From IMG/VR virus record IMGVR_UViG_3300006916_000529, positions 1 to 20,290 of that record: a stretch of 20,290 nt of DNA; one strand, written 5' to 3'. This document shows, in pieces, positions 1,771 to 20,290 of this stretch. A program made the translations under genes and the position numbers. This DNA is from a virus. Within the stretch, counting starts at the first letter, position 1. The number at the start of each line of letters is the position of its first letter. The notes under the pieces are model-generated. The model was not told the DNA's origin. It saw only the letters and a list, made by a program, of their open reading frames with translations, and ran no database searches.

Positions 1771-2733
1771 ATGACAACACCAATTAAACCAAGAGACTTA
1801 GAAAAAAAGTCCATGTTAATTTTTGAGTTTCCTCAAGAGATGGGAAAAAGCCCTCTCAGAGTTACTCTACCTTTTTACGAAAATATAAACATTACTGAGA
1901 AGAAAAAAGCCAACTATAAAAAATATAATCTACTGGGCAGACCTAGCCAGTTGTACACATATACAGGATCAGACTCTAGAAAGTTTTCTATAGACTTTCA
2001 CATGAGCTTCGGTCATATTTTGGAGGAACATGGGGCTGCTCCAATAGAAGAATTCAGAACATACATTGACTCTGAGAACAAAGCTGTACAAATGTTAAGC
2101 TTTACCCAGGGAATGGCTGATGCCTTAGCCACAGTAATTAATGAAGCTGCGTTTCGTAGCTATTCTAGCGAAGCCAGAGAAAGATTTAATATTAAACCTG
2201 AGGAGCCAAAAGAATCAGAAGCTTTGAACAATGTACTAAACGGTTTAGGTAGTATCGTAGATGGAGCGTTGGGCGTGGTTTCCACAGTGAGAGATAATAC
2301 TCCAATACTAAACTTACTTGGGGGAGGTGGAGATACGGAAGGATTTGGATCTAGGATTAACTCTAGATTACAGTATGATAAGGTAATGGATTTAGTCATT
2401 TACTGGACTCACATTATTAGATCCTCCGTGACAAACCTGTCGGAAAACCCTATCTACGGACCTCCTATAGTCAGGCTTTTGCATGGCTCTCTTTTTGATG
2501 ACATCCCTTGTATTTGCACAAATTATACGGTTAGTCCTGTAGAGGAAGCTGGATATGATAAGGATACTATGTTACCCAGAAGAATTAAATACTCAATGGT
2601 CTTGGAAGAATTACGCGCTGGAGATTATCAGAAGTATGAGAGAGGAAATGTAGTTAAAAGAGATAACGTAGTTGGATGGGAAGCAGTAATTAATCCTAGA
2701 GTTGCAAGTATGGACCCAGGAGCAATAAAATGA
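1771..2733 (+). CDS. Tail tube initiator / baseplate protein (gp48/gp54-like position)
   Basis: The protein has 320 residues. The N-terminal half has beta-strand character with a YTGSDSRKFSIDF segment near residue 65. The middle (about residues 150-200) is low in complexity and glycine-rich, ending in LLGGGGD. The C-terminal part has a Pro-Cys-Ile-Cys-Thr strand near residue 245, followed by LPRRIKYSMVLEELRAGDY around residues 267-285. This strand-and-turn layout is what I associate with tube-like or tube-initiator proteins of contractile tails, which join the tail tube to the central hub. The gene lies between the tape measure and the gp53-like gene. The start directly follows the previous stop and has a strong GGAGGA at 1759-1764. 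No LysM domain is visible, although related injection-system proteins often carry one. The family call is tentative. Confidence 0.5.
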   Translation: MTTPIKPRDLEKKSMLIFEFPQEMGKSPLRVTLPFYENINITEKKKANYKKYNLLGRPSQLYTYTGSDSRKFSIDFHMSFGHILEEHGAAPIEEFRTYIDSENKAVQMLSFTQGMADALATVINEAAFRSYSSEARERFNIKPEEPKESEALNNVLNGLGSIVDGALGVVSTVRDNTPILNLLGGGGDTEGFGSRINSRLQYDKVMDLVIYWTHIIRSSVTNLSENPIYGPPIVRLLHGSLFDDIPCICTNYTVSPVEEAGYDKDTMLPRRIKYSMVLEELRAGDYQKYERGNVVKRDNVVGWEAVINPRVASMDPGAIK

Positions 2734-3035
2734 GTTCCTTAGGTAAAAATAGAGGACCTTACTCTATTGATTATAAAGCATATAAGCATAGAAAAGCAAC
2801 AGTAACCACAATACTGAACTCAACTCAATTTGATAATATTCTAGAAAATTTAGATACTGCTTACAAGTATAGCGTAGGCTATATTCCTGCGGGCTTCGAG
2901 CACCGCCCGGATCTCATTTCCGACCTGTTTTATGGGACCCCGGATAAATGGTGGTTGTTAATGTTGGTCAACAATATTTCAGATCCTTTTGAAGGATTTA
3001 ATGTTAACGATAGGATTCTAATCCCAGACAAATGA
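2730..3035 (+). CDS. Baseplate wedge protein, T4 gp53-like
   Basis: The protein has 101 residues. The diagnostic stretch is residues 59-88: RPDLISDLFYGTPDKWW, then LLMLVNNISDPF. It is followed by a LysM-like closing strand, NDRILIPDK, at residues 93-101. This matches the known gp53 family pattern: an Arg-Pro-Asp-Leu-Ile-Ser entry, a Tyr-Gly-Thr/Ser-Pro turn, a Trp-Trp pair, Asn-Asn-Ile-x-Asp-Pro-Phe, and a final Ile-Pro. T4 gp53 clamps neighbouring wedges together around the hub during baseplate assembly. This copy is about half the length of T4 gp53 and keeps mostly the LysM-like core. The start overlaps the previous stop as ATGA and is served by AGGAG at 2718-2722. Confidence 0.85.
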   Translation: MSSLGKNRGPYSIDYKAYKHRKATVTTILNSTQFDNILENLDTAYKYSVGYIPAGFEHRPDLISDLFYGTPDKWWLLMLVNNISDPFEGFNVNDRILIPDK

Positions 3036-5788
3036 ATCCTGAACAAGTACCAACAGCAAACGTATTAATATCCACTGAAGAATCTATTCTTCAAGAGGTT
3101 GTAGATAACTTGGGTATGAAAGGAGCTACCCTTTTCGGTGCTGTAAAGAAGTTACCTGAGGCAGATCAAGCAGGAATACTTTTATTTAATAATATAAACA
3201 ACCCTAATTTCCTGTCTTTCGAGCACCAATTTAATTTACCTGAAACAAAGGCAGTCCTTAGATTCATTGATCCCAAAGGAGAATTTGAGTCTAGTTTTTA
3301 TTCTACTGGTTCCATTTTTAGAGCCTTAGTTTCTACATCTAAAAAAGTTAGAGAAGCAAAGAAAGCAGAAGATAGAAAAGCAGCAAAGTCTCTCGATCTC
3401 CCAGGGCTAACAAAAAAAGAATTAGCTTCCTTAGTTAGAGGAAACTTAGAAAAATTCTTATACGTTGCTTATGGAACAGGTAACTCATCTGGAGATTGGT
3501 CTTCTATTCATAAGATGAAGATTCAAAGAGTGAACTTTACTTCTGATGGAGCAAGAGAATTTACTTTGGTAATGGTGGATGTCACTAAACCATTGTCAAG
3601 AGTAGGGAATACAGTCCTATTGAAGGACCGCATTGATATAAATACCTTAGGAAATACATTAGCCGTTCGAGGATACTCAGATAGAATAAGATATGAACTA
3701 ACAGCGTTCGGAGGACAAGTGTATGGTGACGGGGACGGAAAATACTTCCCCATAGACTATCACTTGCTTATTGTGGATATGCTTATTGATTATGTTAGAA
3801 AAGCTTCTGGGGGAGCAAATGTAATTTGTTTACTTCCTGATTTAAATACTTTATTGGAGGACTACGTTAGAGGAGTAGACGAAGCCTACGCAGGGAATAA
3901 ATCAAGCGGTCAAAACATCACTGCGCTAATAAAGTCTGTGGACGAAGTTCTAGCTGGATTAAGCATTAATCATGTTCGGAGAGGAGATATTCGACTAGGT
4001 TTAGATCCGCCTGGAGACAGACCGTTACCTACAGGTCTTAGATCTTTTTATGATGCGGTACAAACAGAAAACCGCAGGACCGATAATAATAATTATTGGG
4101 TAAATGGAATGTGGTACGCTAAACTTGAAGCAGAGTCTACAGATGGCTTACCTAATTTTATGGCCCCTATTGTGGAAATGATTAAATCCATAAATGTTTA
4201 TGCGTCCGCTCGCCCAGCGAACTACCCGATATCAATGGCGTATTTTACAGAATCAAATACTAGTCTGTTGAACTTTTGGGGAAATGAAGACAACCGGAAT
4301 AAATTTACTTTTAACGGGTTGAAGCCTTTTGATCCTACGGCTCCAACCATAGTCATGGGCCATGACGCTATGTTGTCTGTTTTATTATTTCCTAAAGAAG
4401 CAAAGAGCCCTATACCACTTCGATATATTCATCCAATTAACTCAAAGGATTTGGATGATACATACAAAAAAAATATATCATTAAATTACACTTTGAAGAA
4501 ACAGACTCGAACCTTTGGAGCAAAAAATCAAGTTCCTGATATATTTGGCTATAAAGAAAATTTATCTCAAGAAGCTTTGGATATTATTGAGTCGGAACAA
4601 ATCCCGGTATTTAGACATAACACAAGTAATCCTAATGTACTGAGTGTTGAAATAGACGATCAGAGCGCGGCATACGCTCAGGTATTAAGGTCCGGCTATC
4701 AGAAGCAAGTTTGGAGAACTGCCGTCAATTTAGGGGCTGCGGGCAAGGCAGGAGTTAGGGTTTCCGACTATCCCATATCAGACGTAAGCTCAATGAACGC
4801 AGCAATACAAACAAGTTTATACTCAGAGCATGGACCAGAGCTAAAAGATAAAGATATTATTAATGATATTGTACAAAGAACAGATGCAAAGTTTAGATAC
4901 GATAACAAAATAAAAACAAATGTACAGATAGCAAAAATAGTAAAAGATTATATAGAAAAACTAAGAAGTGACGAAGAGCTAACACTAAAAATCAGTCAAA
5001 GGGTAAACGCTAACCCAGGCGAACTTATAGTTAATATGGCAAATGAGCTTAGTAAGAAAACAGTTCGAGTTACGTTACAGTCGTTACCCATGTTTTTTAT
5101 TAGTAGCAAAACAGAATATTTAAACTCTCCTATTGTTCTTTTTTCTCAAGACGCTCCGATGATGAATCAAGTTTATCCTAATAGGACTAGATTTAATAAT
5201 TATCTAACTGGAGTATATTCTATCCTTGGTTACGCTCACACGATATCAGAAAATGAAGCGTCTTCAAAGTTTGTTTTAGCAAAAAGAAACTTTGACCCTG
5301 TAGGTACAGGACAAGGAGGTGGGGATGAAGGCAGAGGAGAGGAAATTCCGGGGGGTGACGAAATGACATATGAGTATAAGATTCGTGAGTTCTTAGAAAG
5401 TTCACCTGAGACAGTAGAAGTGCTTACGGAAGATTTAGAACCTGTGGAGGATAAGTTGTTCGTTACCCCAGAAGAACCAAAGGAAGAAGCCCCTGAAGTA
5501 ATTGAAGTGCCCATTACTTCAGAAATTCTTGACCCTCCTAAGCCTCCTGTGACTAATGAGAAAACACCAGAATATGAAGAGATTGTCACAGGACCAGCCG
5601 AGTTTAACGAGGCATTAGATCTTGGGTATGAAAATCCTTTATTGGTTAATCCGTTAGATTCGGGTGGTCCGAGGGTAAAAGAAATACTTGAAGCAGGGTG
5701 GTATGATTTTGGAGATGGGTTGGAGTGGTTTAATGGAGGCCCTACACCCCAAAAATTTTATGATAACCAACAGGAGCGGGAGGAATAA
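3032..5788 (+). CDS. Large probable baseplate central-hub protein (gp27-like role) with acidic C-terminal tail
   Basis: The protein has 918 residues. The N-terminal region holds strand-rich hub-type features: a FIDPKGEFESSFY segment near residues 77-90, and a YGTGNSSGDW turn near residue 148 followed by strands leading to DVTKPLSRVGN. Residues about 200-740 are mixed alpha/beta with no motif I can name. After a glycine-rich hinge near residue 760 (GTGQGGGDEGRGEE) comes a Pro/Glu-rich, probably disordered linker at about residues 775-865. The last 40 residues are rich in Trp, Tyr and Phe (AGWYDFGDGLEWFNGG). The spike gene follows after a 2-base gap, as expected for a hub/spike pair. T4 gp27 has only 391 residues, so if this is the hub it is greatly enlarged. 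Its start overlaps the upstream gene as ATGA with no good Shine-Dalgarno sequence, which suggests translational coupling. A different wedge or tail protein cannot be excluded. Confidence 0.5.
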   Translation: MNPEQVPTANVLISTEESILQEVVDNLGMKGATLFGAVKKLPEADQAGILLFNNINNPNFLSFEHQFNLPETKAVLRFIDPKGEFESSFYSTGSIFRALVSTSKKVREAKKAEDRKAAKSLDLPGLTKKELASLVRGNLEKFLYVAYGTGNSSGDWSSIHKMKIQRVNFTSDGAREFTLVMVDVTKPLSRVGNTVLLKDRIDINTLGNTLAVRGYSDRIRYELTAFGGQVYGDGDGKYFPIDYHLLIVDMLIDYVRKASGGANVICLLPDLNTLLEDYVRGVDEAYAGNKSSGQNITALIKSVDEVLAGLSINHVRRGDIRLGLDPPGDRPLPTGLRSFYDAVQTENRRTDNNNYWVNGMWYAKLEAESTDGLPNFMAPIVEMIKSINVYASARPANYPISMAYFTESNTSLLNFWGNEDNRNKFTFNGLKPFDPTAPTIVMGHDAMLSVLLFPKEAKSPIPLRYIHPINSKDLDDTYKKNISLNYTLKKQTRTFGAKNQVPDIFGYKENLSQEALDIIESEQIPVFRHNTSNPNVLSVEIDDQSAAYAQVLRSGYQKQVWRTAVNLGAAGKAGVRVSDYPISDVSSMNAAIQTSLYSEHGPELKDKDIINDIVQRTDAKFRYDNKIKTNVQIAKIVKDYIEKLRSDEELTLKISQRVNANPGELIVNMANELSKKTVRVTLQSLPMFFISSKTEYLNSPIVLFSQDAPMMNQVYPNRTRFNNYLTGVYSILGYAHTISENEASSKFVLAKRNFDPVGTGQGGGDEGRGEEIPGGDEMTYEYKIREFLESSPETVEVLTEDLEPVEDKLFVTPEEPKEEAPEVIEVPITSEILDPPKPPVTNEKTPEYEEIVTGPAEFNEALDLGYENPLLVNPLDSGGPRVKEILEAGWYDFGDGLEWFNGGPTPQKFYDNQQEREE

Positions 5789-5790
5789 CT

Positions 5791-6987
5791 ATGTTAGAAC
5801 AAACGATAATAAAGTCAGCAGAGGTAAAGGATAGGACAGCTATAGGTAAAGATGGAACTTTTATAGCAAAGTTAGAGGACGGCCAAGAGGAAATGGTTCG
5901 TTACACAAGTCCTTATGGAAGTGGAGCTAAAGCGGGTATAATTGCTGTTCCTGAGGTGGGTACGCCTATACTGGTTTGTCAGCCTATGGGAACTCTGAAA
6001 TGGTACTACATGGGCTCTACGTTTGAACCAGAGCTTCCTCCTAAGAATTCAGAAGTCGAAGGAGGGAAGTCTATCTTAGCCGATGAGGCTGCACAAAGCT
6101 CATCTCCTTTTGGAAGAGTTGATCCTAACATAGCTAAAACTTCTGGGGTAGTTAATAAAATGCTATTCAAGGGTAATCATGGTCATGGCTTAGAGATTTC
6201 AGATGACAAAGATGGAGTTTCTATCATGGGAGTAAAAACTGAACTTACTTCTTCTAACGGAAAAAAAATTACAATGGCGGATAGCCCAGGAATAGATTCA
6301 ATAAAACTAGATTCCGGCAACAACGCTTCAATAACTCTCACACAAAACCCTCAAGACAATCCTCAGAAGGGAGCAGCTTCTATTGAGATTGACTCCAACG
6401 GACCTCAGCTTCATGTTTGTAGGGAGTCAGATATGGAGGTTAGGGTTCTAGGTGGTGGAAGAGAGCTTAACATTATTAATTCTGCTAACGGCGTCCCTTG
6501 GGGAAAGATTGCAGGAATTCCTGAACCTAATCCAATAGCCACGGCAGGAAATGTTAACATACAAAGTGATCGAGGGGATATTAATTTATTCGCTAATTCA
6601 CCGTATACGGGAAGAATTTTTATTGAGACTTTAGCTCCGGGTGGAGCTAGGCAGTTTATTAAGATCGGCACGGCGGGGCCTGACGGATCTATTGTTTTAC
6701 AAGCAAACTCCATAGTTCTTGATGCTACTGGACCAGGAGGAACGATTGATATTAATGCTACAGCAGGAGTTTTTATCAACGGAGGCGCGGGGCCAGTGTC
6801 TACGCAAGGGACTTCAATAGAGACTCTAGCTACTGGGCCTGGAGGAGTAAACATTGAACCTGGGTCGGGCGTGGTTAATCTAGCAGGTGGAGCCGCTGCG
6901 GTCCCTAACTCGCCTAGATATGTTGAGAACACTAACCCTGCTGACATATATAAGGTAGACGACTATTTCGGTTTAGGAGTATTTTAG
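5791..6987 (+). CDS. Baseplate central spike: OB-fold plus beta-helix (gp5/gpV-like, no lysozyme domain)
   Basis: The protein has 398 residues. Residues 1-77 look like the OB-fold of phage baseplate V/gp5/VgrG proteins, including the VPEVGTPILVC strand and GTLKWYYMG near the domain end. The family hallmark where the spike begins is present at residues 128-140: GNHGHGLEISDDKDG, comparable to the GHxxExDDxxG signature of spike and VgrG proteins. From about residue 150 onward there are short alternating strands with many Gly, Asn and Asp, as in a trimeric beta-helix needle. A Gly-Pro turn recurs at residues 296, 314, 334 and 349. No lysozyme-type domain lies between OB-fold and needle, unlike T4 gp5. 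The C-terminal end (IYKVDDYFGLGVF) lacks an obvious metal-binding HxH tip. The start has a strong GGGAGGA at 5778-5784. The spike punctures the outer membrane on contraction. Confidence 0.85.
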   Translation: MLEQTIIKSAEVKDRTAIGKDGTFIAKLEDGQEEMVRYTSPYGSGAKAGIIAVPEVGTPILVCQPMGTLKWYYMGSTFEPELPPKNSEVEGGKSILADEAAQSSSPFGRVDPNIAKTSGVVNKMLFKGNHGHGLEISDDKDGVSIMGVKTELTSSNGKKITMADSPGIDSIKLDSGNNASITLTQNPQDNPQKGAASIEIDSNGPQLHVCRESDMEVRVLGGGRELNIINSANGVPWGKIAGIPEPNPIATAGNVNIQSDRGDINLFANSPYTGRIFIETLAPGGARQFIKIGTAGPDGSIVLQANSIVLDATGPGGTIDINATAGVFINGGAGPVSTQGTSIETLATGPGGVNIEPGSGVVNLAGGAAAVPNSPRYVENTNPADIYKVDDYFGLGVF

Positions 6988-6988
6988 T

Positions 6989-7435
6989 ATGGCATCATTT
7001 GATTTAGATACATTTCTTACGGCACAGGGCCAAACGGGAGCTGGACCTGTACAGGCTTTAGGTATGGCGTATGGTGTTCCTAGCTGTATGCTTAACTTGG
7101 CTTCTGATGTTCTTAGCTTATTACCTTCTCCGGTGCTAATTTCTATGAACTTAGCAGCACAACAAGGAAAAGCTAAAGCAAATGAGATTATTCAAAAATT
7201 ATTTAGAATCCTACAATTTGATTTAGGCATTATAACCTTTGATACTGAGACAGGAACCTTTCAATTTAAATTAGATGATGGGTGGCTGGGAGTTGATTTT
7301 ACCGCTCTCGGTGAAATACTATCTTTGATCAATGGACTAACCGCTTTCGGAGCACAAATCTACCAAAACCTTAATGCTGCTATAGATCAAGTCGAGGCAA
7401 TTATTGATTGTGTAGGTAAGTTTGGCGACTCATGA
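6989..7435 (+). CDS. Small unknown protein encoded next to the spike
   Basis: The protein has 148 residues and I do not recognise it. The first 70 residues contain hydrophobic helices, with GMAYGVPSCMLNLASDVLSL and then a Pro-flanked LLPSPVLISM stretch. Residues 85-105 look like a beta hairpin (IITFDTETGTFQFKLDDGW). The C-terminal part is another hydrophobic helix ending in AIIDCVGKFGDS. In T4-like and injection-system clusters the position after the spike can hold a PAAR tip protein, but no PAAR motif or histidine triad is visible; the sequence I read has no histidine at all. It could be a tip substitute, a membrane-active ejected protein or an assembly factor. AGGAG at 6975-6979 supports the start. 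It overlaps the next gene as ATGA. Confidence 0.8.
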   Translation: MASFDLDTFLTAQGQTGAGPVQALGMAYGVPSCMLNLASDVLSLLPSPVLISMNLAAQQGKAKANEIIQKLFRILQFDLGIITFDTETGTFQFKLDDGWLGVDFTALGEILSLINGLTAFGAQIYQNLNAAIDQVEAIIDCVGKFGDS

Positions 7436-9678
7436 GTGCCAAAGACCCCGGATATGCAGCCCGGACGGTTTCTCCGGAGGAGCGAAGAGCAGCAGTTGAA
7501 AACAAATATGCTGCGGGAATAGCTTCGGCTAATACAGCTAAGGACTTCGTAAACCGAGTCGATGCTTTTGAAGCTAGAATAAATAGTATTATCAAGGCCA
7601 GAAGAGATGACCCTTCTCTAGAGCCTGTCTTCAAAGATGACTCAGAGTTCGGGTTGAGCGGTCTTAATACTTCTGCTTCTATTGATCCTGGACTTTCTGA
7701 GGAGGACACTTTTAGACTTACGTTTGGGCCTCCCGAAACAGTTACAGGTCAATACATATTAACTAAGGATGGATTATATTACGATTCGCAGACAGGGGGC
7801 TTAGACCCAATCATCACATCTATTTCTGGTATTGTCCCTGTTGGGGAAAGGTGGAAATACAATTATGATCCTAACCTAGGTGGAAAGGGAGATAAGATAG
7901 ATATAAATTCTCTAAATAAGTTTGCTGATAATATATTTGATCCAAACATAATTGACGATAGCATAGGGCTCACAGTATATTACGATCAAGATCATTTTTT
8001 ACAAGTTATAAAGCAGCAGAGGGATAAACTAGTATTTGATCTTTCTGGCGACCTCCAAGTATTTATTGAACAACATGGAGAGGACTCTTCCATTGTTTTA
8101 AATCAAAAACAACTTATTATATCAGAAATAGCTAATCACAACGACAAGCTAAACAGAAGAAAGAAGCAGATTGAAGTTGCTGTAAAAGCTCCTCAAATTT
8201 ATGGTGGAGAGACACAGCCTATATTCCCTCCGGGCGATGTTCCAATTAATGATTTCTCCTTCCTAGCTGATTATAATTTGCAGGTTGATTTAGAAAAGCA
8301 GCGGGCTCTAGTTTTTGAACAGGCGGAAGTAAACGGAATAGTTCTTCCCCTGAATCCCAAGTTCGTTAGGTCCACACCGAAACCAAGGTCTCTCAGCTAT
8401 GAGCATTTAAATGTTCCGACCATAGGTAGAGGTAGTATTATTTACTCTCCCTCGTCTACTGACCAAACGAATGCGACGGTACTTTCTTTAACGGACAACA
8501 TCGTTACAGATAAATTATTTGCTATTTATAATTTCTTAGACACTAACTTAGAGCTACCTTCATCTACGAACTTTACCTCGACCAATTGCGCTACGGATGA
8601 TAACTATAACAACGCACAGTTGGTAGGCACTTCAAGACAGACCATATTTGCTTCTGGATTAGCTATTCCTTATCTAGGAGGGATTACTAAGAATAAGGGG
8701 ACCGCAGGAAACACCGCAGCGGCATCCGCGCTAGGAAGCTTCTTAAAGCTCCCTGATACTAAAGAGTATCAAAATTTAACCTACTCACCTTCGGGCTTTA
8801 GTATGGAGTGCTGGGTTCATGTACCGGACATTTTAGATAGCGAGGCTGGCTGGTTAAGCACTGGGGCTTCTTCTTTAACTAAGGTGCTACTAGCTTCAGA
8901 AAATGTAGGAATCAAGGAAGGTTTCTCTAATCTAGACAGAATGGGCCAAGAAAGAGACCTAGATTACTTGCCGAATAACAAGGGGGATCAACTCGTTAGA
9001 GGTATGCTTTGCGGGTTCACCAGAGATAGAAGAATAACGCAATTATCTACGTCATCGAACCCCATAGGCTTCAGTAACAGTAATGCTGATAATGATCCCG
9101 TGTCGTCTCTTAGCTTTTTCATTGCCCCAACGATATCAAAAGATGCATCCTCGGCATCTTTTGTTAACAGCGATGAGTGTGCAGACTACCCTATATTCCA
9201 TAAGATGAAAGTAGATCTCTCGGCAACGGCTTTCGGGAATGTGTCTTCACAGTTTGTTCTTGTAGGGATAGCGTGCGATCCGAAGGAAAATACAGTAAAA
9301 ATGTATGCAGATGGGGAGCTAGTGGCTACTTCTTCAATAAATGAAGTGTTTGGTGTACCTGAATATCAAACGCCCTCACTACCAAACTTTAAACAACCTA
9401 ATAGCTTTGAGTATTCATCCACAACTGTGGATGGACCGCAGATACTTAAACAAGGTCCTCTACTGTATGATTTTTATACACCCTGGATCGTAGGAGGCGG
9501 ATATACTGACGGAATGTTTTACCGGGGCAACTTCCTAGGAGGAGACCGTGGAGGCATAACGAGCGGTCTTCGCGGCCATGTGGGAAGCCTCAAATTTTAC
9601 GGTAAAGCACTAGATAGTAGAGAAGTAAAAAAGAACTTTGACGCTCAAAAAGGCTTCTTCAAAAATATTAAAATCTAA
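7432..9678 (+). CDS. Baseplate-cluster protein with coiled coil and C-terminal LamG (concanavalin A-like) domain
   Basis: The protein has 748 residues. An N-terminal helical stretch (about residues 15-65) and a second long charged helix (about residues 189-255, VIKQQRDKL through DKLNRRKKQIEVAV) suggest coiled coils. From about residue 362 the layout fits a LamG_3-type jelly-roll: an opening strand (LFAIYNFLD), a Gly/Asn loop, then FSMECWVHVPD with Trp461, NTVKMYADGELVATSS near residues 622-635, and a closing GHVGSLKFYGKALDSREVKKNFDA at about residues 719-742. That closing strand and helix are very typical of the family. LamG folds often bind glycans, so a role in touching the host surface or decorating the baseplate is plausible but not shown. 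The gene lies between the spike and gp25-like genes. Its start overlaps the upstream stop as ATGA with only weak ribosome-binding sequence. Confidence 0.75.
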   Translation: MSAKDPGYAARTVSPEERRAAVENKYAAGIASANTAKDFVNRVDAFEARINSIIKARRDDPSLEPVFKDDSEFGLSGLNTSASIDPGLSEEDTFRLTFGPPETVTGQYILTKDGLYYDSQTGGLDPIITSISGIVPVGERWKYNYDPNLGGKGDKIDINSLNKFADNIFDPNIIDDSIGLTVYYDQDHFLQVIKQQRDKLVFDLSGDLQVFIEQHGEDSSIVLNQKQLIISEIANHNDKLNRRKKQIEVAVKAPQIYGGETQPIFPPGDVPINDFSFLADYNLQVDLEKQRALVFEQAEVNGIVLPLNPKFVRSTPKPRSLSYEHLNVPTIGRGSIIYSPSSTDQTNATVLSLTDNIVTDKLFAIYNFLDTNLELPSSTNFTSTNCATDDNYNNAQLVGTSRQTIFASGLAIPYLGGITKNKGTAGNTAAASALGSFLKLPDTKEYQNLTYSPSGFSMECWVHVPDILDSEAGWLSTGASSLTKVLLASENVGIKEGFSNLDRMGQERDLDYLPNNKGDQLVRGMLCGFTRDRRITQLSTSSNPIGFSNSNADNDPVSSLSFFIAPTISKDASSASFVNSDECADYPIFHKMKVDLSATAFGNVSSQFVLVGIACDPKENTVKMYADGELVATSSINEVFGVPEYQTPSLPNFKQPNSFEYSSTTVDGPQILKQGPLLYDFYTPWIVGGGYTDGMFYRGNFLGGDRGGITSGLRGHVGSLKFYGKALDSREVKKNFDAQKGFFKNIKI

Positions 9679-10145
9679 TGGCAGCTAATACTACAGTTAC
9701 GAGATTTGGGGTTCGTCCTACAAAGTATGAAGAGCAAGCTCCTAGAGCGAAGCGTCAGGAGATTTATGGACTAACTTTTCCTATAGGAAAAGAAAGAGAT
9801 TCCGGTGGGTTCTTAAAAAAGAACAGCGGAAGACAATTGATAACTCAAGCAGTAACTCAATTAATTAGAACAGAAAAAGGCGAGAGGCTGATGCTTCCTA
9901 ATTTTGGATGCAACCTAAGAAAATTTCTTTTTCAGCCAATAACCCAGGAGCTATTTGAAGAAATAAGGGATACTATTGCTTTTTCGTTTTCTAATTATAT
10001 TGTGGGGGCTACTCTGCTAAAGGTAGGCGTATTTGAGACGGGTGAGTATGACGCGGCGGGGGGAAACCAGATAAGAGTAATATTAACTGTTCGATTATCT
10101 ACAGACGACTTACAAGTATTTGACATAGAGGCAAAAATAGAATGA
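9678..10145 (+). CDS. Baseplate wedge / sheath initiator, gp25-like (GPW/gp25 family)
   Basis: The protein has 155 residues. The family signature is at residues 66-90: EKGERLMLPNFGCNLRKFLF, followed by QP and a long helix (ITQELFEEIRDTIAFSF). The known gp25 core carries the same EPR-like Glu-x-Arg turn and a Phe-Gly/Phe-Leu-Phe-x-Pro run; here Glu69-Arg70 fill that place. gp25 is part of the inner wedge core with gp6 and gp7 and starts polymerisation of the contractile sheath. The protein is somewhat longer than T4 gp25 because of a charged N-terminal extension of about 35 residues. It begins at a TAATG overlap with the LamG gene and no Shine-Dalgarno sequence is visible, so its translation probably depends on the upstream gene. 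Confidence 0.9.
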   Translation: MAANTTVTRFGVRPTKYEEQAPRAKRQEIYGLTFPIGKERDSGGFLKKNSGRQLITQAVTQLIRTEKGERLMLPNFGCNLRKFLFQPITQELFEEIRDTIAFSFSNYIVGATLLKVGVFETGEYDAAGGNQIRVILTVRLSTDDLQVFDIEAKIE

Positions 10146-11740
10146 ATTTTTCTGGTACAATAACTTCGGACTTTATGAAGTTGGCTCCTATAGCTCTTAA
10201 CAGAAGAGTGGATTTAATAAACTTTGCGGCCACAGACTTCCTAACCTTAAGAGATTCTCTTATTGATTATGTTAAGGCTGTCTATCCTGACGAGTATAAG
10301 TATTTTGTGGAATCAGATTTGGGTATGATGTTTATAGAGTTAGCAGCATACCAGGGAGCAGTTATGTCCATGAAGGCTGACATGTTGGCTAATGAAAACT
10401 TTTTAGCTACAGCAAAGCAGAGAAATAGTGTAAAAAAACTTTTAGAGTTGATTGGCATTAGAATGAGAGGTCCTTTATCCGCAGCAGCGGATGCTCAGGT
10501 AATATTTGAAAATGAAGACCTCACCTCGGCTGACTCTATAATTATCGCACCCGAACAAAGGGTGTTTGAGATCACTTCCCCAGAGGATGGGGCTCAGGTA
10601 GCATACACCTTATATAAAGTAGTTAACGGTGTAGTTGATCAGGCAACAAATAGAGCTTCTATTGTTTTGTCTCCCGTATCTGAAGGTTTGGGTACACAAA
10701 ATAACGTATTTCAAAATTTAGTTATGCAAGAGGGTTCCTTGGTTGTTGAGACTGGGGAGTTTGCCGCTACTGAGGGGCAAAAAACAATCCCCCTCACCGA
10801 TGGGCCTGTTGTCGAGGGAAGTATAGAGGTCTTTGTTACTTCCCCTAATGATGACTCTGCTGGAGCTTACTCGGAAGTTGACAGCATTTATTTCGCTTCG
10901 GGAGCTAGTGATAGGGTTTTTGAGATGGTTTACGATGAATTTTATAACGCCACGATTGTTTTTGGCACAGGCGTAGCGGGTATTTCTCCTCCAGATAATG
11001 CATCGTACATAGTAACGTATAGAGTCGGTGGCGGTACTAGAGGCAACTTAGAAAAGAGGGCTATAGCCACCTCTATTGTAGCGACAAGTGGAACCAATGT
11101 CTACGCAGGGACCATAACTAACACCTCCAAGGCTACGGGAGGAGCTAACGCAGAGACGATTGAGCACGCAAAAAAATATGCACCGCTAACCTTCAGAAGA
11201 CAAGACAGGTTAGTAACCCTAAGTGACTATTCTTCTTTTGCCAACAGTTTCATTAGCACCTTCGGAACTATAGGAAAAGCTACAGCGGCAACAAGAAACG
11301 CATACTCTTCTGCCAACACAATAGATATTTATGTTCTAGAAAAAGCAGGAGACTTTCAATTACAAAGAGCCACTAGTAACTTTAAAACTCAATTAATAGA
11401 GGCCATGAACGAGAAAAAAATGATGACTGATGATATAGTTGTTGTTGATGGCTTAATTAGAACTCTTGATCTTATTTGTACCATTAGGATTGATCAAGAA
11501 CAAAAAGAAAATGAAGACTCTATAAAAGCAAAAGTTAGAAATAGAATTTTAAACTACATGAGCATAGATAATACTGAGTTTGGCGAGGATTTAATAGTAG
11601 CTGACTTAAATAGACAGATCTTTGAGGTAGATGAGGTTAGGTTCTCTACTTTGGATAATGTCGCCCAGGATATAAGAATTGATTTCAATGAGATTATCCA
11701 ATTAAATAACTTAATAATAAATGTAGAATACTTAGCCTGA
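10142..11740 (+). CDS. Baseplate wedge protein, gp6 / baseplate J-like
   Basis: The protein has 532 residues. The N-terminal part has the wedge-type helices, with LGMMFIELAAYQGAVMS from residue 60 and RNSVKKLLELIGIRMRG at 94-110, as in gp6-family proteins that bind the gp25/gp53 core. The baseplate J-like core follows: a GTGVAGISPPD turn near residue 276, YRVGGGTRGNLE near 293, and APLTFRRQDRLVTLSDY near 347-365. These match the known Yr-GGG-x-GN and R-x-Vt-x-x-Dy patterns. The C-terminal region contains strands typical of gp6-type dimerisation domains (residues about 430-532). T4 gp6 has 660 residues, so this is a slightly compact version. It forms the ring linking wedges. It overlaps the gp25-like gene as ATGA, with GAGG at 10128-10131. 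Confidence 0.9.
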   Translation: MNFSGTITSDFMKLAPIALNRRVDLINFAATDFLTLRDSLIDYVKAVYPDEYKYFVESDLGMMFIELAAYQGAVMSMKADMLANENFLATAKQRNSVKKLLELIGIRMRGPLSAAADAQVIFENEDLTSADSIIIAPEQRVFEITSPEDGAQVAYTLYKVVNGVVDQATNRASIVLSPVSEGLGTQNNVFQNLVMQEGSLVVETGEFAATEGQKTIPLTDGPVVEGSIEVFVTSPNDDSAGAYSEVDSIYFASGASDRVFEMVYDEFYNATIVFGTGVAGISPPDNASYIVTYRVGGGTRGNLEKRAIATSIVATSGTNVYAGTITNTSKATGGANAETIEHAKKYAPLTFRRQDRLVTLSDYSSFANSFISTFGTIGKATAATRNAYSSANTIDIYVLEKAGDFQLQRATSNFKTQLIEAMNEKKMMTDDIVVVDGLIRTLDLICTIRIDQEQKENEDSIKAKVRNRILNYMSIDNTEFGEDLIVADLNRQIFEVDEVRFSTLDNVAQDIRIDFNEIIQLNNLIINVEYLA

Positions 11741-14700
11741 TGGTTGATAACAGCAAATATACTCCTAATCCAAGAAAATACTACAAGTCTAACTTCGTAG
11801 AGTTGTTGGAGCTATTAACTCCTAATGTGTATGTCCAAGAGGATTTATCTCTTAGTGGGACGGAGTTTAATCCTTTATCAAAAATTATAAACAGCCATCT
11901 GGATATAGCAAATAACTTTTCTGGAATTCTGCCTATTTCTTCTATCCCCGGCTCGCAAACTAGTCAGCTTAGTTCCATAGCTGGAATATCTCAGTATTTT
12001 GTAAAACAAAATAATTTAACAAAAGTTACTAGTCAAAGTTTTAGGGAGAAGATTTTACTTCCTCTTTCCGTTAATTATTCTAACTTTGATACCAGCGCGG
12101 AGTTCCGAGATTATCTTTCCGACACACTCCTACCTAAATTAGTTCCTCCTGGAATAACTACCCCAGGAACAATAGAAAGTAATGTGGCAGAGCTTTCCGC
12201 ATTTACCGGGAGCCAGGACGCCAGCGGCATTCATAACTACCTTGTAGATGCACTAGGTTGGTTCTACTTATTGAACACCTCTGGCTTAGGTAATCTTTCT
12301 TATTCCCCTTCCTCTTTTGTTGTTGATAGCTTCTCCACTCTTTACTTAGGCCAAAAGCTAGAAACTGTTGATGGCATAAAAGGATTTACAAAATATATTT
12401 GGAATAATGTGGAAACTTGTTCCTTTGGAGAATATATTCCAGCAGACTACTTGTCAGGCGCAGCAGACGCAATACTGGATTCTAGCTCTGGGGAGGTTGC
12501 AACATACACTAGCGGAACACAAAGGTTAGATAATCTGCTTACTTTACTAGATGTTATCTATTCCCCTTTATCTATTGACAATCAGGACTATACAGTAAAA
12601 GAAGCCTTTGATGATTTTATTGATGCTCAATTAACCTTAGAAGACAGAGTATCCAATGGACCGTACAGAAAAATATTAACCGCGTTGGGTTTTCATTTTG
12701 CTGATATTTCTGATCAAGTAGAAAAAATAAAATATATTTACGACATTGAGGATGCAGATCAAGATAAGTTGGAATATATTGCGGACTTGATCGGTTATAA
12801 ACTTAGAGGAAATCAGTCGGAGAAGTGGAGACATCAGCTTCGAGTGGCGGTTGATATCTACAAAAAATCGGGAACAGAGGCTGCTCTTAGGGCAGCACTT
12901 AACGCTATTGTTGTCAATAGTTTATTAGATCTTGAAGGAAAGATAATTCCCTTGTGGGAGTCTTATGTTCCTTTTCTTATCTGGTATTCTCTGGGGACAG
13001 GCTCGCCCTTATTCAAAAGCCTTAAGACTTGGACGCCTGAGATAGCGAAAAAGGCTGGAGTTCCTACCTACAACGCAAGTAGCTTGGAAGAAAATATAAA
13101 GTTAGCTACGGATAGCATTCTATTAGATTTAGCTTCGGCTTTCCCGAAGAACTTTAAATTTTTTGGTAAAGAGTTCCCCCTACCTAGGTTCTATGTGCTG
13201 AATGAAGATGGGACCAAAGGTGATTTGTATACCGTGCTTGGCGATACTAAAATGAAACCTTGGCACGCACACCCCGTGAATGGTGCGGGGTATCAAGCGT
13301 TACGAAGACAAGCGCAAGAATTTGGAGAAGTGGCTTTATGGGATCGAGCCATAGGCCCTGGGCCGTTTGGTGAGGGAGTATACATGACGGGTAAACGTCA
13401 CCCCCTTGGTTTACAGAGACCAACTTACTTACTTTTTGAGGGTGATCCTGAGTTCCTTTTTAACTATAGAGGAAAACAAAATTATCCCATGCCTCCCTTT
13501 GAGGAAGTAAAGTATTATAGGGACTCTTCTGTAACTAAACCTTTGGCGGAACTACTAGTAGACAGGCTTAAATGTTTTAAAGTCGAACCTTCTTTTGCTG
13601 ATTCTGTAGGAGACTTTATAACTAGTGGCGCGGTGACAGACGATAGTAACATAGGATCTTTGAATGAGTTCTTGATGTTCTTCAGTTCTGTGCAGCACCC
13701 ACCAAACTATGACGAGGTTATGTTCAGCATCTCTGATTATGAGAAGAATCTGCTTAGTCTTTGGAATGGAAAATCCTCTCATATATTCCTGGATTTTGAT
13801 GAAGCAAGTTTCGATTTTAGAAAATCAACACTTGAGGCAGATTCTAAGTATGCACTATACGAAACCGCTAGGGTAGCTCAGGAGTACAGCCCAGCACACA
13901 CAATCCCTAGAGTCAACTTAAACGCTAGTGCTGAGGACGATTTTATTTCCTCTGCTACAAATTATACTTACCTTGGTTACGATAAGGACGATACCCGAGC
14001 GGGGTATTCTTCCGGGTCGGTTTTAAGTAATGCAGAAGTAAGTGGTGTAAAAATCATTTCTGAGCCTGGAAGAGAAGGCTTTAGCACGTTTAAAAGGAGT
14101 CAGGTTGATGGAGTAGATACTGATTTAAGTTCAACCAATTCCATTGTCGGAACAGGAAGGAGATCCTTGCGGAGAAGAAATTTTAGGTATACTCTACCTG
14201 AGCAAGGATACTATGATAGAACAGGCTTCAACGGCCCTGTGAGCTACGATCCTTCAGTTATTGAGAGGTCTATGGCCTCCTCTTTAGGAGAGCTTACGCT
14301 TGGGTATGTTGCTTCTGCGGGAAAGTTTTACCCTGTAGAGGACCACACGAATATCTCTGGGGTATGGCACATTTGCGAAGGGCTGGGTTCTACTAATACT
14401 TTTTCGGGTGTAGACACTAGTAATACCTTCCCGTACAGAGGATTAAAGGTCATAGGGTCTGACGCAAAGAACGAAGATATTCCTTCAACTACAGACCGCT
14501 ATGTTGATAGGGGTCAGACACCTGCAATCATTAAGGCAATGCATTCCTTAATGCAAAAAAAAGCCAGGGTTCTTGCGGAGATTCAAGTAAGCGGAGACCC
14601 ATCATCCTTTAGTGACGATTCTTACTGGAAAGATCAGGTCCAAAGCCTTACTAACTCAGCTATTGCTAGTGGATTAGTTATAAACTCCTATGCAGATTAT

Positions 14701-16098: not shown

Positions 16099-17156
16099 TG
16101 AGAGGAGAAGTAGAAGTTTGGAGTGGAGATGAATTAATCCTTAAGGAAGCAAATATGCTAACTGATGGAGCGGGAGTTTTATTGGCAGATATTATGACTG
16201 TATCTCCCTCTTTATCTGGAATAGATGATCTGGCAACATCGTCTATAACTGATGCTTCAAATTATACTATTCAAGCAATCTCTTTTGGCACAGGGTCGGA
16301 TGCGTTTAGATCTAACGCACATTCTTGGAGTGGTAAGAAAAATAGTATTTATAGCGCCAGCGCCTTTGCGGGCATATTGGGGGGATCCACAGGAAACGTA
16401 GCCTTACTAAGAACTAATAGGGTAGATGGGGATATAGATTCAGTGTATCAGCCCGCTAACCCAGGGCTTCCTACGGCCCCAGATCCAAGAAAAGAAATAT
16501 TAGAAGATAATACCGCCGTGTCTGCCTTGTTAGCATCGACGGATGTTAGTTCTGTTATTCCTCCAAACGGGCAACTTACAAACTTTTTTCCTTCTGCGTT
16601 GGCGTTAGCTTATACTTCTGAGTCACCGTTAAGCTCTACGTTTAATACTCTTAAGACGGCATCAATAATAGGCTGTTTCCCAGAAGGAAGTAGTGTACCC
16701 TACCCTGTAGCTAGAGATAAGGTCATTTACTTTAATCAAACTGTCTCAGGAATAGAAGTTGAGGTAGAAGGTGGATACTTCAATGAAGTAAGCTCTATGG
16801 ATGTATCAGGCTTTGTCAACGCCGTGTCTGGAACGGTGAGCACTAGTGGGCTTACAACGTCCTCGAATATTGATTTTTCTTCTAATGGAACTGTTGAGTA
16901 TGCAGTAACATTGTCTAAGGATGATGCTTTGTTTGCCCATGCTTATGGAGGAATCTTTCACTTAGGTCTTTGGACCATAGACATGAAGCAATCTCTTCTG
17001 AACGGAAATACACCTCCTTTTAGGTTTAGTATACTAAATAATCCTAGAAAGTACCGATTGTTTTGCAGAAAAGGAGTGTCAAAAGATCTGACTCACATAG
17101 AAGACATTACTTCTTATCAAGACTTAACAATAAAGTGGAGGCTTCACTTCCTATGA
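16098..17156 (+). CDS. Unknown tail/baseplate adaptor-like protein, longer member of a paralogue pair
   Basis: The protein has 352 residues. It opens with two strands (GEVEVWSGDELILKEAN), then a short helix MLTDGAGVLLADIM, then YTIQAISFGTGSDAF near residues 55-70. It ends with DLTIKWRLHFL. The same opening, helix, fG-tG strand and R/KW-x-hF ending recur in the next gene, so I read the two as diverged duplicates. The middle 200 residues are extra compared with that neighbour and rich in Ser, Thr and Gly. The position after the gp7-like gene corresponds to wedge or fibre-adaptor genes (gp8-gp10 region) in T4, but I see no motif that proves such a role. Translation starts at a TGATG overlap, with GGAG at 16083-16086 about 11 bases upstream. 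Confidence 0.75.
   Translation: MRGEVEVWSGDELILKEANMLTDGAGVLLADIMTVSPSLSGIDDLATSSITDASNYTIQAISFGTGSDAFRSNAHSWSGKKNSIYSASAFAGILGGSTGNVALLRTNRVDGDIDSVYQPANPGLPTAPDPRKEILEDNTAVSALLASTDVSSVIPPNGQLTNFFPSALALAYTSESPLSSTFNTLKTASIIGCFPEGSSVPYPVARDKVIYFNQTVSGIEVEVEGGYFNEVSSMDVSGFVNAVSGTVSTSGLTTSSNIDFSSNGTVEYAVTLSKDDALFAHAYGGIFHLGLWTIDMKQSLLNGNTPPFRFSILNNPRKYRLFCRKGVSKDLTHIEDITSYQDLTIKWRLHFL
17135..17141 (+). promoter_or_regulatory. Ribosome-binding site selecting the ATG at 17153
   Basis: GTGGAGG lies 11 bases before ATG 17153. It decides between this start and an in-frame upstream TTG at 17063, which would add 30 basic residues copied from the overlapping end of the previous gene. With ATG 17153 the junction is the ATGA overlap used repeatedly in this operon. 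Confidence 0.6.
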
Positions 17157-17758
17157 AAAACTTTACAGAAGAACTGGGCATTACTGGGCACCTTACGATC
17201 ATTAAGAAAATGAACACAGGTGAAGAGGAAATTCTCCTAGATGACTCTAATATTATTGTCTCTGGTATGGGAGTAGGTTTGTCTTACTTATTCGCAGCTT
17301 CGGGGTCGAACAACGTGCTTGACTATCAGATACAAAAATTTCAGGTAGGTGTTTCTGGTCCACCCGCTGGTGGGGTAACAAGCTCTATTAATGAGCTTTC
17401 CGGTGCTCTTACCTCGATAGATGAATACGGAACAGGTAGCAACTTAGCACTTTTTGAAGGCACTCAGATAGTAGGCAGCAATGAAGTTACAGGAAGAGTT
17501 TTTGCGGAGATACCTGCTAGTAAAATAACAAGAATAAACGAAAACTCGGTTCGGTATACTTTAGTTATTGATGAAGAAGCGGCTAACGGACTCCAACGGG
17601 ACTCTTCAGATGCTTCAATAAACGAGATTGGGATGTTCATGAAGAACCCTACAGGGGCGGCAGACGACAAGCCTATTTTAGTCTGTTATAGAACATTTAG
17701 CGATATAATAAAAACTAACGATTTTAGTTTAATTTTCCGATGGACAATAAATTTCTGA
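17153..17758 (+). CDS. Unknown tail/baseplate adaptor-like protein, shorter member of the paralogue pair
   Basis: The protein has 201 residues when started at ATG 17153. This start was chosen because it gives an ATGA overlap with the previous stop and has GTGGAGG at 17135-17141; the frame also extends upstream to a TTG, which looks spurious. It parallels the previous protein: opening strands (ITGHLTIIKKMNTGEEEILL), a helix SGMGVGLSYLFAASG, a YQIQKFQVGVSG strand, and a DFSLIFRWTINF ending that matches DLTIKWRLHFL. This one is compact, without the long Ser/Thr-rich middle. A short ASINEIGMFMK segment near residues 156-166 resembles tail-collar or fibre-connector proteins, in which such a strand precedes the C-terminal end. 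A connector between baseplate wedge and fibres is plausible but unproven. The next gene starts 1 base after its stop. Confidence 0.75.
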   Translation: MKNFTEELGITGHLTIIKKMNTGEEEILLDDSNIIVSGMGVGLSYLFAASGSNNVLDYQIQKFQVGVSGPPAGGVTSSINELSGALTSIDEYGTGSNLALFEGTQIVGSNEVTGRVFAEIPASKITRINENSVRYTLVIDEEAANGLQRDSSDASINEIGMFMKNPTGAADDKPILVCYRTFSDIIKTNDFSLIFRWTINF

Positions 17759-17759
17759 T

Positions 17760-20290
17760 ATGGCATTCAACAAAGATGACGTTTATACAAGCAGCGGCAG
17801 CGTGGTGCTGTTTAATTCTTGGACACCTTATGTTTCCAAGTTTGATACCAGCACGTTCTACAACTGGGAGCAGGACAATGTTCCCCTTTATGATTTAGAA
17901 GAGCGCACATATGAACTTTGGGAGCAAGGAGGATTCGCTACCTCTGCGGGTGTCCCAGGTATAGCTTTAACTGTGTCTGCGGACACTCCTGAGCTTACCC
18001 TCCAACAAAACACAAACATATTTGTTGACGTTAGTTCTGCCATTGCGGCTATCCCAAAGGTGGTACGTTTTCCTGTCCTCATTGAAGTAGGAAACTTTGG
18101 AGATTTAGGTCCACTAGAGTTACACAACTTTAGAATAGAAGAAGAGGGATCCATTGAGATCATCAACAGAAACTTTGCTAGAACGTACAATGCTTCTTCC
18201 GACGTTAGAGCGGTAGCAACACCCTCGGTAGGAGAATACTTGCAAGCACCTACTCAAATTAGTTCCCTAGACCTGAGCAACAGTTTAAGGGATACTTCTT
18301 GTGTTCATATATCGACATCTGTTTTATCAGGAACAGGGGACCCTAGATTTAATCAGGTTAACTCGGTCTTTTTTCCTTCTCACTCATTACGATCCACCCC
18401 CTTAGCAGTTACCTTAGCGGATGGTAATTTTAGAACGGGAACAGTTAACGAATTCAGCCCAAACGTATTTGAGAATTTCACCACAGATCAAACAATACCT
18501 ACAACTGATTTAAGTTCTCTAGATTCTAACATCCTAGCAAACCTAAAAAGACCTCAGGTTTCTGTTTCAGATGCTTTAGGAGGAAATGTTTACGGTAACT
18601 CTTGTTCCAAGATTACTGTCAAGAATTGCGATGGACCCATATACATAAGAAACTTTTTTGTTAACTCCGAGAATCTAGAAAAAACGGGCATAGAGGTAAA
18701 TAATTCTAAAGTATTAATTGAGAACTGCGCGGCTGTTAGGGCTAAAGAAGCTGGATTTAAATTCGTTAATTCAGATGTTACGCTTTCTAGATCAGCGTTT
18801 TCGTATAGAAATTATACCTTAGGGGACCCTGCCACTACTAGAGAAGCTGATTTGGGGATTGGGTTTCACCTAATCAACAGTGAAGTTCTCGTTAGCTCTT
18901 TACCTCTTGATGTTGGGTCCACCAGTGTAGGCGATGTAGGGGCAGAGGGAAGAGACGCTACGGTTGTAGCTTCCAGAAACACAAAAGGATTTGTTTTAGA
19001 AAATTCAAAGCTTCGTGGTGGAGTAAAAAGAACATCCGGGTCAAACCCAGCAACGGGGGGTGTCGTTTGCTCAGAGCTAAACACCAGTGCGGGCATCGTT
19101 CTTAACAATTCCTATATTGAGTTAAAAGGATTGATTGACATTTATGCCAATGATGAGGGCATAGTCTCAGAAAATTCTTTTATTAAGTATGAAAATCTTA
19201 CTGTTGACGGAAACCAGAAAAACGGATTAAAGAGTTTAACCTCTACAACAATATTTGATTCAGACACAATACTTGATGATACAAATAGAAAACAACTTGA
19301 GTTCTCTGGAAACTCTGTCCATGTTGATCTTCGTGGAGGGAGCACGTTTGGGTTTGAGTTGAAAACAAGTGTCCCGCAGGTGTATGGAAATTCTTTCTTT
19401 AGAAATGCCTTCGGGGGTTCTCCTGCTGTCTACGCCTCAGATAATTCAAACGTAGACCTAGTAAAACCTTTTATTGACGTTACCGATGTTGACAATGGCA
19501 CTGTAAATGCACAACAGGTTTATTACGGTAGAGCGATCAAAGCAACTAACGGTTCTGTAGCCAGCTTAAATGGAGCAAGCACTGGAGCTACACTACTGTT
19601 AGGTCCAGCCGCGTACCCTACTCAGAGAGTTATGGCAGGAGCCTGTGCAGAAAATAACTCTACAATAAACTTTCATGGACCGACAGCGGTGGCTCAGTTT
19701 GGTGTAGATGTTTTAGCAAAAGATAATTCGGTTACCAATTTCGAGCCCAGAAGAATTAAAGGTTCCTATGCTCCAGATAGTTTATCTTTTGATCTAAGTG
19801 CCGCAGAAAATCATACAACAGTTGAACTTCATTCTACTCGCTCATGTATTGTTGCACAAAAAAATAGCACGATAAACATGCGAGACTTGGGAGCTTTCCC
19901 AGGAAACTGGGGATCGACACCTAGCGGGATTGCGATACTAGATAGGGTAAGCTATTCGCTTCCTTTAAGTGGTGATGTATCAGGAGGGTCCATGCAGTTT
20001 TTCTCTAACCCTCAAGACGCTGCAAAGATAGCAGCAGAAACACTAAATTCTGTTGGTGCTTTAACAACGCCACTAATTCCTACTAAATCTGGAAGAACCA
20101 ACACTTTACTTATTAATGATGGGGGGTATCAGAGTCCTAACTACACTACTCGACAGGGAATCTCTTTTGGTGGTGTCTGCTTGAGAGCAGTCGAAGATAG
20201 TTTAGTTAATGTTCAAAATGTACACTTCCCTGTTCCTGTAAACGGAAGTCCGGCAGACGGGCTTTACTACGATACCAGCGGAGAGGAGTG
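17760..20290 (+). CDS. Large parallel beta-helix tail/fibre protein (3' end outside window)
   Basis: An open frame from ATG 17760 runs without a stop to the right edge, giving at least 843 residues. The first 60 residues hold an aromatic, acidic motif (FYNWEQDNVPLYDLEERT at 33-50, then LWEQGGF). Residues 60-150 look like a beta domain. From about residue 270 the chain shows short strands separated by Asn-Ser turns. Asn-Ser, or a close variant, recurs with its Ser/Thr at residues 281, 316, 338, 374, 416, 451, 473, 519, 545, 563, 599, 634, 657, 686 and 703, usually followed by an alternating hydrophobic strand. This is the appearance of a right-handed parallel beta-helix with ladders of stacked turn residues, as in phage tailspikes and fibres. 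No catalytic site for polysaccharide cleavage could be identified. The start follows the previous stop by 1 base, with only a weak ribosome-binding sequence. Confidence 0.85.
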   Translation, partial: MAFNKDDVYTSSGSVVLFNSWTPYVSKFDTSTFYNWEQDNVPLYDLEERTYELWEQGGFATSAGVPGIALTVSADTPELTLQQNTNIFVDVSSAIAAIPKVVRFPVLIEVGNFGDLGPLELHNFRIEEEGSIEIINRNFARTYNASSDVRAVATPSVGEYLQAPTQISSLDLSNSLRDTSCVHISTSVLSGTGDPRFNQVNSVFFPSHSLRSTPLAVTLADGNFRTGTVNEFSPNVFENFTTDQTIPTTDLSSLDSNILANLKRPQVSVSDALGGNVYGNSCSKITVKNCDGPIYIRNFFVNSENLEKTGIEVNNSKVLIENCAAVRAKEAGFKFVNSDVTLSRSAFSYRNYTLGDPATTREADLGIGFHLINSEVLVSSLPLDVGSTSVGDVGAEGRDATVVASRNTKGFVLENSKLRGGVKRTSGSNPATGGVVCSELNTSAGIVLNNSYIELKGLIDIYANDEGIVSENSFIKYENLTVDGNQKNGLKSLTSTTIFDSDTILDDTNRKQLEFSGNSVHVDLRGGSTFGFELKTSVPQVYGNSFFRNAFGGSPAVYASDNSNVDLVKPFIDVTDVDNGTVNAQQVYYGRAIKATNGSVASLNGASTGATLLLGPAAYPTQRVMAGACAENNSTINFHGPTAVAQFGVDVLAKDNSVTNFEPRRIKGSYAPDSLSFDLSAAENHTTVELHSTRSCIVAQKNSTINMRDLGAFPGNWGSTPSGIAILDRVSYSLPLSGDVSGGSMQFFSNPQDAAKIAAETLNSVGALTTPLIPTKSGRTNTLLINDGGYQSPNYTTRQGISFGGVCLRAVEDSLVNVQNVHFPVPVNGSPADGLYYDTSGEE

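Follow-up and report, generated by a model that had tools for sequence, protein, structure and literature searches.

The 20,290-bp contig of an uncultured virus analyzed here (the window) encodes a protein with a C-terminal LamG/concanavalin A-like jelly roll within a block of baseplate genes. We favor, at a probability of roughly 0.55, the reading that this protein is a core part of the baseplate and also an outward-facing, conserved platform for contact with glycan. The features of the window that bear on this assignment are as follows.

2730..3035, plus strand: gp53-like baseplate wedge protein (PF11246, E 2.9e-5; phrog_232, E 1.2e-6)
3032..5788, plus strand: probable hub protein, named by position and synteny only; no match in Pfam or PHROG
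5791..6987, plus strand: spike-like protein directly 5' of the LamG gene, named from a reading of its sequence and its position; nothing firm in Pfam or PHROG
6989..7435, plus strand: the first 148 residues of the LamG protein, a separate ORF by a frameshift
7432..9678, plus strand: the other 748 residues of the LamG baseplate protein gene (intact relatives, about 896 aa)
8506..9675, plus strand: the LamG/concanavalin A-like jelly roll, C-terminal, window residues ~359-748 (AF2, VIA-align, Foldseek and, in relatives, Laminin_G_3)
9678..10145, plus strand: gp25-like baseplate wedge protein directly 3' of the LamG gene (PF04965, GPW_gp25, E 4.4e-9; phrog_261, E 6.4e-12)
10142..11740, plus strand: gp6/baseplate J-like wedge protein (tblastn matches in 402 phage records)
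11740-16098: gp7/tail-protein-I-like ORF (Pfam Tail_P2_I, E 0.011, below the family cut-off)
17153..17758, plus strand: small tail protein of a family we call K (no match in a Pfam scan; relatives in four other contigs carry a sulfatase)

The LamG gene thus lies between the spike-like and the gp25-like genes, as the preliminary description of this DNA had placed it. Among the 15 tblastn matches listed for the gp6-like ORF, those with an annotation are baseplate wedge, J or assembly proteins. The last ORF of the window (17760-20288) is open-ended, with 843 aa that resemble a repetitive tail spike and no match in Pfam.

The two ORFs at 6989-7435 and 7432-9678 are parts of a single LamG baseplate gene (6989-9678) of about 896 aa, which is cut in the window by a one-base frameshift near position 7430. 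The preliminary description had taken the protein to be 748 aa long with an N-terminal part of 360 residues; this was wrong, as the preceding 148-aa ORF is the true N-terminus. Where they align with the window, three related contigs (L001-L003) match it at 99.76-99.99% identity, and in all of them the gene is uninterrupted; in L003 the sole difference over 14,122 bp is one gap near position 7430. The gene is in one frame in 147 of the 148 distinct contigs that contain its start, the sole exception (L016, 1969-4640) having its frameshift at a different site. Since these contigs and the three near-identical ones are intact, the break, to judge from the sequences compared, is specific to the window contig, as either a sequencing error or a rare defect. 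Separately, L001 lacks 20 bases of the window (11751-11770) near the start of the gp7-like ORF.

By sequence, the window LamG protein had no match in Pfam or PHROG and no meaningful match in the PDB. The Laminin_G_3 profile (PF13385) was found, at a lenient threshold of E<=1, in 12 of 31 relatives scanned (best 5.2e-5), and had no match in the window itself or in the intact, otherwise identical L003, which is among the 31. A PHROG search with seven divergent members gave only two unnamed families, in one member each. Structure prediction was more informative. An AF2 model of window residues 255-748, built from 111 aligned rows (the window and 110 relatives that are 29-87% identical), had a pLDDT of 82.5 and a pTM of 0.78; its residues 1-100, a linker, were modeled poorly, and elsewhere each block of ten residues averaged at least 82. 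In VIA-align comparisons the best PDB chain had a Z of 16.8 over 216 residues at 3.1 Å, 569 of 967 chains had Z>=8, and the lectin domain of a GH43 arabinanase scored 16.2. Foldseek at E<=0.001 gave 197 PDB and 203 viral matches, and the viral models (BFVD) included numerous phage proteins annotated as concanavalin A-like or LamG-like. The Foldseek TM-scores by query were low (0.19-0.33 among the matches listed), probably because of long insertions in the modeled domain. Such insertions are expected since the domain has about 390 residues in the window compared with 151 positions in the Laminin_G_3 profile. The LamG fold that had been proposed at residues ~362-748 is therefore confirmed at the level of the model, in which residues ~359-748 (nt ~8506-9675) form the two-sheet jelly roll of the concanavalin A-like lectin/glucanase superfamily, the fold shared with Laminin_G_3. 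Most of the top fold matches were binding domains of clostridial neurotoxins, which we set aside as likeness of fold and not of function (7-17% identity in the rows listed).

LamG folds are already known in phage virion proteins, and two of these, a virion structural protein of cyanophage S-PM2 (Q5GQW3) and a baseplate wedge subunit of S-SCSM1 (A0A6M2ZHU7), were structural matches to the window domain, although at 12% identity. The tailspike of cyanopodophage Pan3 (9vyh_p) shares this architecture at 10% identity (Z 15.7, with 234 of its 269 residues in the alignment), but it is the named tailspike of a podophage, whereas the window protein is encoded between the spike and gp25. Our literature search, which covered papers outside subscription access, found no paper on the Pan3 tailspike and no description of a LamG protein that occupies this place in the baseplate block across a clade.

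The N-terminal half of the protein is predicted to be partly helical. A full-length AF2 model from 25 rows had a pLDDT of 47, too poor for use; this low-confidence model places predicted helices at residues ~107-207 and ~326-405 of the full-length protein. The coiled coils claimed in the preliminary description were borne out in part. Heptad-like periodicity was strong at residues 107-152 (period 3.46, 0 of 2000 shuffles as strong) and weaker at residues 47-78 (period 3.66, 19 of 2000 shuffles), both stretches falling in, or mostly in, the cut-off 148-residue piece. By contrast, it did not exceed that of shuffled sequences in five other stretches, among them 163-207, 326-363, 326-405 and 368-405. 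Profile matches of the N-terminus in the PDB were generic coiled coils (E>=0.14) and were rejected as homology.

To follow the gene in related phages we used two sets of contigs. The first comprises 176 distinct contigs found with the LamG protein (window excluded, contig repeats removed by hand), a selection that favors the LamG reading; the second comprises the best 80 contigs found by gp6 alone and is independent of LamG, and it covers gp6 identities to the window down to 64%, remoter contigs being covered in the LamG-biased set only. In the gp6-found set, LamG was directly before gp25 in 78 of 80 contigs, and the other two have a contig edge there, with fewer than 400 bases. At least 90% of the LamG profile was seen in 69 of these 78, the other nine starting close upstream of gp6; none of the 69 contigs long enough to hold the LamG part lacked it, and so no domain swap was seen. 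In the LamG-found set, the family ORF that follows was gp25 in 175 of 176 contigs (a contig end in the other), and the upstream neighbor was the spike family in 143, a contig edge in 32 and the hub in one (L138), so that the spike family was directly upstream in 143 of the 144 distinct contigs reaching that far. Judged by gene order, the position of the LamG gene in the gp25/gp6/gp53 baseplate block is conserved.

For this phage group, a single pattern search of IMG/VR gave at least 592 confirmed stretches. Neither the window LamG protein nor the version in L118 had a tblastn match at E<=1 in 50,697 phage records, and the LamG profile had no match in the stretches fetched from three outgroup records that keep the baseplate block. 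Of these, LR756511 has gp53, the hub, a 742-aa spike-like ORF, gp25 and gp6 in a row, and BRock and LuckySocke have a small tail protein followed directly by gp25 and gp6; the spike profile also had no match in these stretches, and "spike" is there a name by position. In S-PM2, which has no LamG-type gene beside gp25, a hypothetical gene of 195 nt precedes gp25. The expectation that other phages have no such protein at this place was therefore borne out in these records, and T4 is not known to have a LamG-type protein there.

Conservation was expressed as the median identity to the window on gp6-found contigs in which the spike, LamG, gp25 and gp6 are all present. For the 39 loci with a gp6 identity of 0.5-0.72, the LamG half (0.67) was as conserved as gp6 (0.67), and more so than gp25 (0.52) and the spike (0.39); in the same bin the values were 0.68 for K (14 loci), 0.66 for gp53 (25 loci) and 0.25 for the hub (32 loci). 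Across these 39 loci the 254 residues preceding the LamG half had a median of 0.58, the gp7-like protein 0.57 and the N-terminal 148 residues 0.48. The 12 closer loci gave a similar ranking (LamG half 0.84, gp6 0.83, gp25 0.79, spike 0.51). The LamG-found set, which was selected by LamG itself and in this comparison counts some contigs twice, agrees with this result (LamG versus gp6, 0.65 versus 0.66 in 47 loci and 0.80 versus 0.83 in 24 loci). At a larger distance, in 20 loci of that set, the LamG half (0.40) fell below gp6 (0.51) and gp53 (0.45) and stayed above gp25 (0.32) and the spike (0.29). Residues that are fully invariant in the LamG domain are mostly Gly, Trp, Pro, Asn and Phe.

Seven of the 176 LamG-found contigs encode a predicted enzyme on the same protein. 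In L042 the LamG ORF continues for about 765 residues that match the Pfam Sulfatase family (PF00884, E 2.7e-26), after which gp25 and gp6 follow, and a search with this extension identified the same arrangement in six further contigs.

L042, 370-5418: LamG-sulfatase fusion
L056, 2519-7798: LamG-sulfatase fusion
L199, 6277-11430: LamG-sulfatase fusion
L201, 6184-11385: LamG-sulfatase fusion
L058, 1-3216: LamG-sulfatase fusion, cut at the 5' end
L200, 1-3105: LamG-sulfatase fusion, cut at the 5' end
L202, 6223-11546: LamG-sulfatase fusion over two frames, with a frameshift inside the sulfatase that splits its motifs between them

Another contig, L057, is fragmentary and covers just the end with the sulfatase, and an eighth sulfatase match (L203), which is 25% identical and has no LamG part, was excluded from the count. 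The fused C-terminal enzyme is about 765-830 aa long, and in the contigs with listed neighbors the next gene is gp25. The LamG-fused sulfatases retain the strings C[TS]PTRxxxLTGK, GKWH and GDNG; we take C-x-P-x-R to be the formylglycine site and GKWH and DNG to be motifs of S1-type sulfatases. The PDB matches of the fused domain were GalNAc-6-sulfatase and carrageenan sulfatases, and S1-type enzymes (PF00884; 7stt, 9fo1, 6prm) share these three motifs with L042 and the other fusions, but the phage enzymes differ in their length, their extra segments and their attachment to baseplate or tail proteins. In a tree of 112 LamG domains, the seven fused rows group together as a single clade (SH-aLRT 99) and require one change, a number as low as which was reached in 0 of 500 shuffles; long branches, L054 and L117 among them, drew a warning from the program. 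The remaining 169 of the 176 contigs have no sulfatase on the LamG protein, nor has any of the 78 gp6-found contigs, and none was found in the window ORFs scanned. Further, no other C-terminal extension of more than 25 residues was present in 202 ORFs reaching the C-terminal end of the profile (contig repeats and the window included), and there was none in the 78 gp6-found loci.

A related enzyme is fused to a second tail protein. In the record of L129 a sulfatase is joined not to LamG but to a homolog of the small tail protein K of the window, and this arrangement is present in four contigs (L208 and L210 being one).

L208, 776-3943, minus strand: K-sulfatase fusion
L209, 955-4155: K-sulfatase fusion
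L211, 5953-8865: K-sulfatase fusion
L212, 5992-8427: K-sulfatase fusion

These four contigs matched the K profile with E-values of 4e-61 to 7e-70; the profile was iterated and may itself have drawn on them. The K-fused sulfatases contain the C-x-P-x-R site together with GKWH and DNG, and they are 35% identical to the LamG-fused enzyme over 771 aa. The two phage sulfatases are far closer to each other than to the best PDB chain (2.3e-6) or the best sampled genome (2.9e-6). PF00884 scored above its cut-off in seven of the 14 records searched, six with LamG fusions and one with a K fusion; the sulfatase of L058 was detected with the A4 profile only. A tblastn search of 50,697 phage records gave no sulfatase match at E<=1e-3. 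As to a donor, 16 of 198 genomes from the class of the L117 genome gave short, weak stretches (best E 2.9e-6), none of them a close donor, and the L117 genome itself had no sulfatase match. No gene for FGE (PF03781) was found in the 14 records, seven of which have a sulfatase and any of which may be partial, and maturation of the enzyme would therefore rely on the host. That the sulfatase rides on the virion we infer best from its fusion to two tail proteins.

Based on these results, we propose that the helical N-terminal half docks the LamG protein at the junction of spike and wedge, a placement that is a guess given the quality of the full-length model, and that the C-terminal jelly roll would face outward and touch glycan. 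That the C-terminal end is exposed is suggested by the large enzyme it carries in seven contigs, and this outward end would be where one lineage added the sulfatase. In that lineage the baseplate may strip sulfate esters from polysaccharide of the host surface or capsule while the phage is settling there. Because most contigs, including all 78 gp6-found ones, are without the enzyme, the glycan part of this reading is borrowed, for the window, from its relatives.

The concanavalin A/LamG fold is also used structurally, and the strongest competitor of our reading, although we regard it as unlikely, is that the jelly roll is a block for protein-protein contacts in the baseplate that binds no ligand, the sulfatase having merely used a free C-terminus. 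The gp6-like conservation, the constant presence next to gp25 and the nature of the invariant residues would all be expected of such a block. Against it stand the fusions, which join a glycan-active enzyme to precisely this protein and a relative of that enzyme to a second tail protein, and the nearest solved folds, which include the arabinanase lectin domain and a cyanophage tailspike. It is distinctly improbable that the domain instead sits on the baseplate as a receptor-binding module or glycan sensor with host specificity. Such a role would suit the concanavalin A-like fold and the exposure suggested by the sulfatase fusions; however, variation or loss would be expected of a sensor tuned to particular hosts, or of a decoration that the phage can do without, and the LamG half equals gp6 in identity, exceeds gp25, the spike and the hub on gp6-found contigs, and is never missing or swapped in those long enough, which argues against a sensor. 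The preliminary description's reading as a glycan sensor, or as a decoration separate from the fibers, is partly borne out: gp6-like conservation and presence in 78 of the 78 contigs that reach the gene weaken it, while its link to glycan gains indirect support from the seven sulfatase fusions. From the sequence comparisons, the LamG protein looks more like a core part of the baseplate than like a rapidly evolving glycan sensor, and binding of a glycan that is widely shared is a possibility compatible with this conservation. That the adjacency is incidental and the protein no part of the baseplate, as the frameshift in the window gene might suggest, is very improbable and largely refuted by the near-constant place before gp25, the intact frame in 147 of 148 contigs and the retention of the family down to 29% identity.

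Clues to the host are few. A 130-kb Prochlorococcus single-cell contig (L118) and a virus record of 129.9 kb (L119) have LamG genes that are 99% identical; a link to Prochlorococcus through this pair is possible, with carry-over in sorting as an alternative. With this one relative as a pointer, the phage group may be largely marine. The gene psbA (PF00124) was absent from nine records; none was found in the record of L119. A contig from an Altibacter MAG (L117) is only a hint.

Virion-borne depolymerases on tail fibers or spikes modify host surface glycan, and the fusions described here would likewise put a tail enzyme onto such glycan, the difference being that this is a predicted desulfating enzyme on a protein of the baseplate block. 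As a tentative extension, somewhat less secure than the role proposed for the LamG protein itself, in a large clade of uncultured phages the conserved baseplate protein with the lectin fold may act as a mounting arm, with some lineages adding a sulfatase there or on a second tail protein, so that virions would desulfate host surface polysaccharide during attachment with a two-mount system. Our literature search, again outside subscription papers, found no description of a phage tail or baseplate sulfatase. A passage in a review suggests that mucus could be a target of enzymes carried on phage structures, and the review also mentions a bacterial BACON/sulfatase protein (PMC9853417); passages elsewhere concern a gliding protein of a host that has an FGE domain (PMC13288928) and FGE-type DGR target proteins of prophages (PMC12724379).

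For the window, a LamG protein that is about 896 aa long and core-like alters how the gene should be annotated and tested. If the proposal is true, a baseplate sulfatase would add desulfation to the known glycan-directed enzymes of virions, would point to hosts coated in sulfated polysaccharide, and would allow a test of whether the conserved LamG protein serves as a glycan platform of the baseplate.
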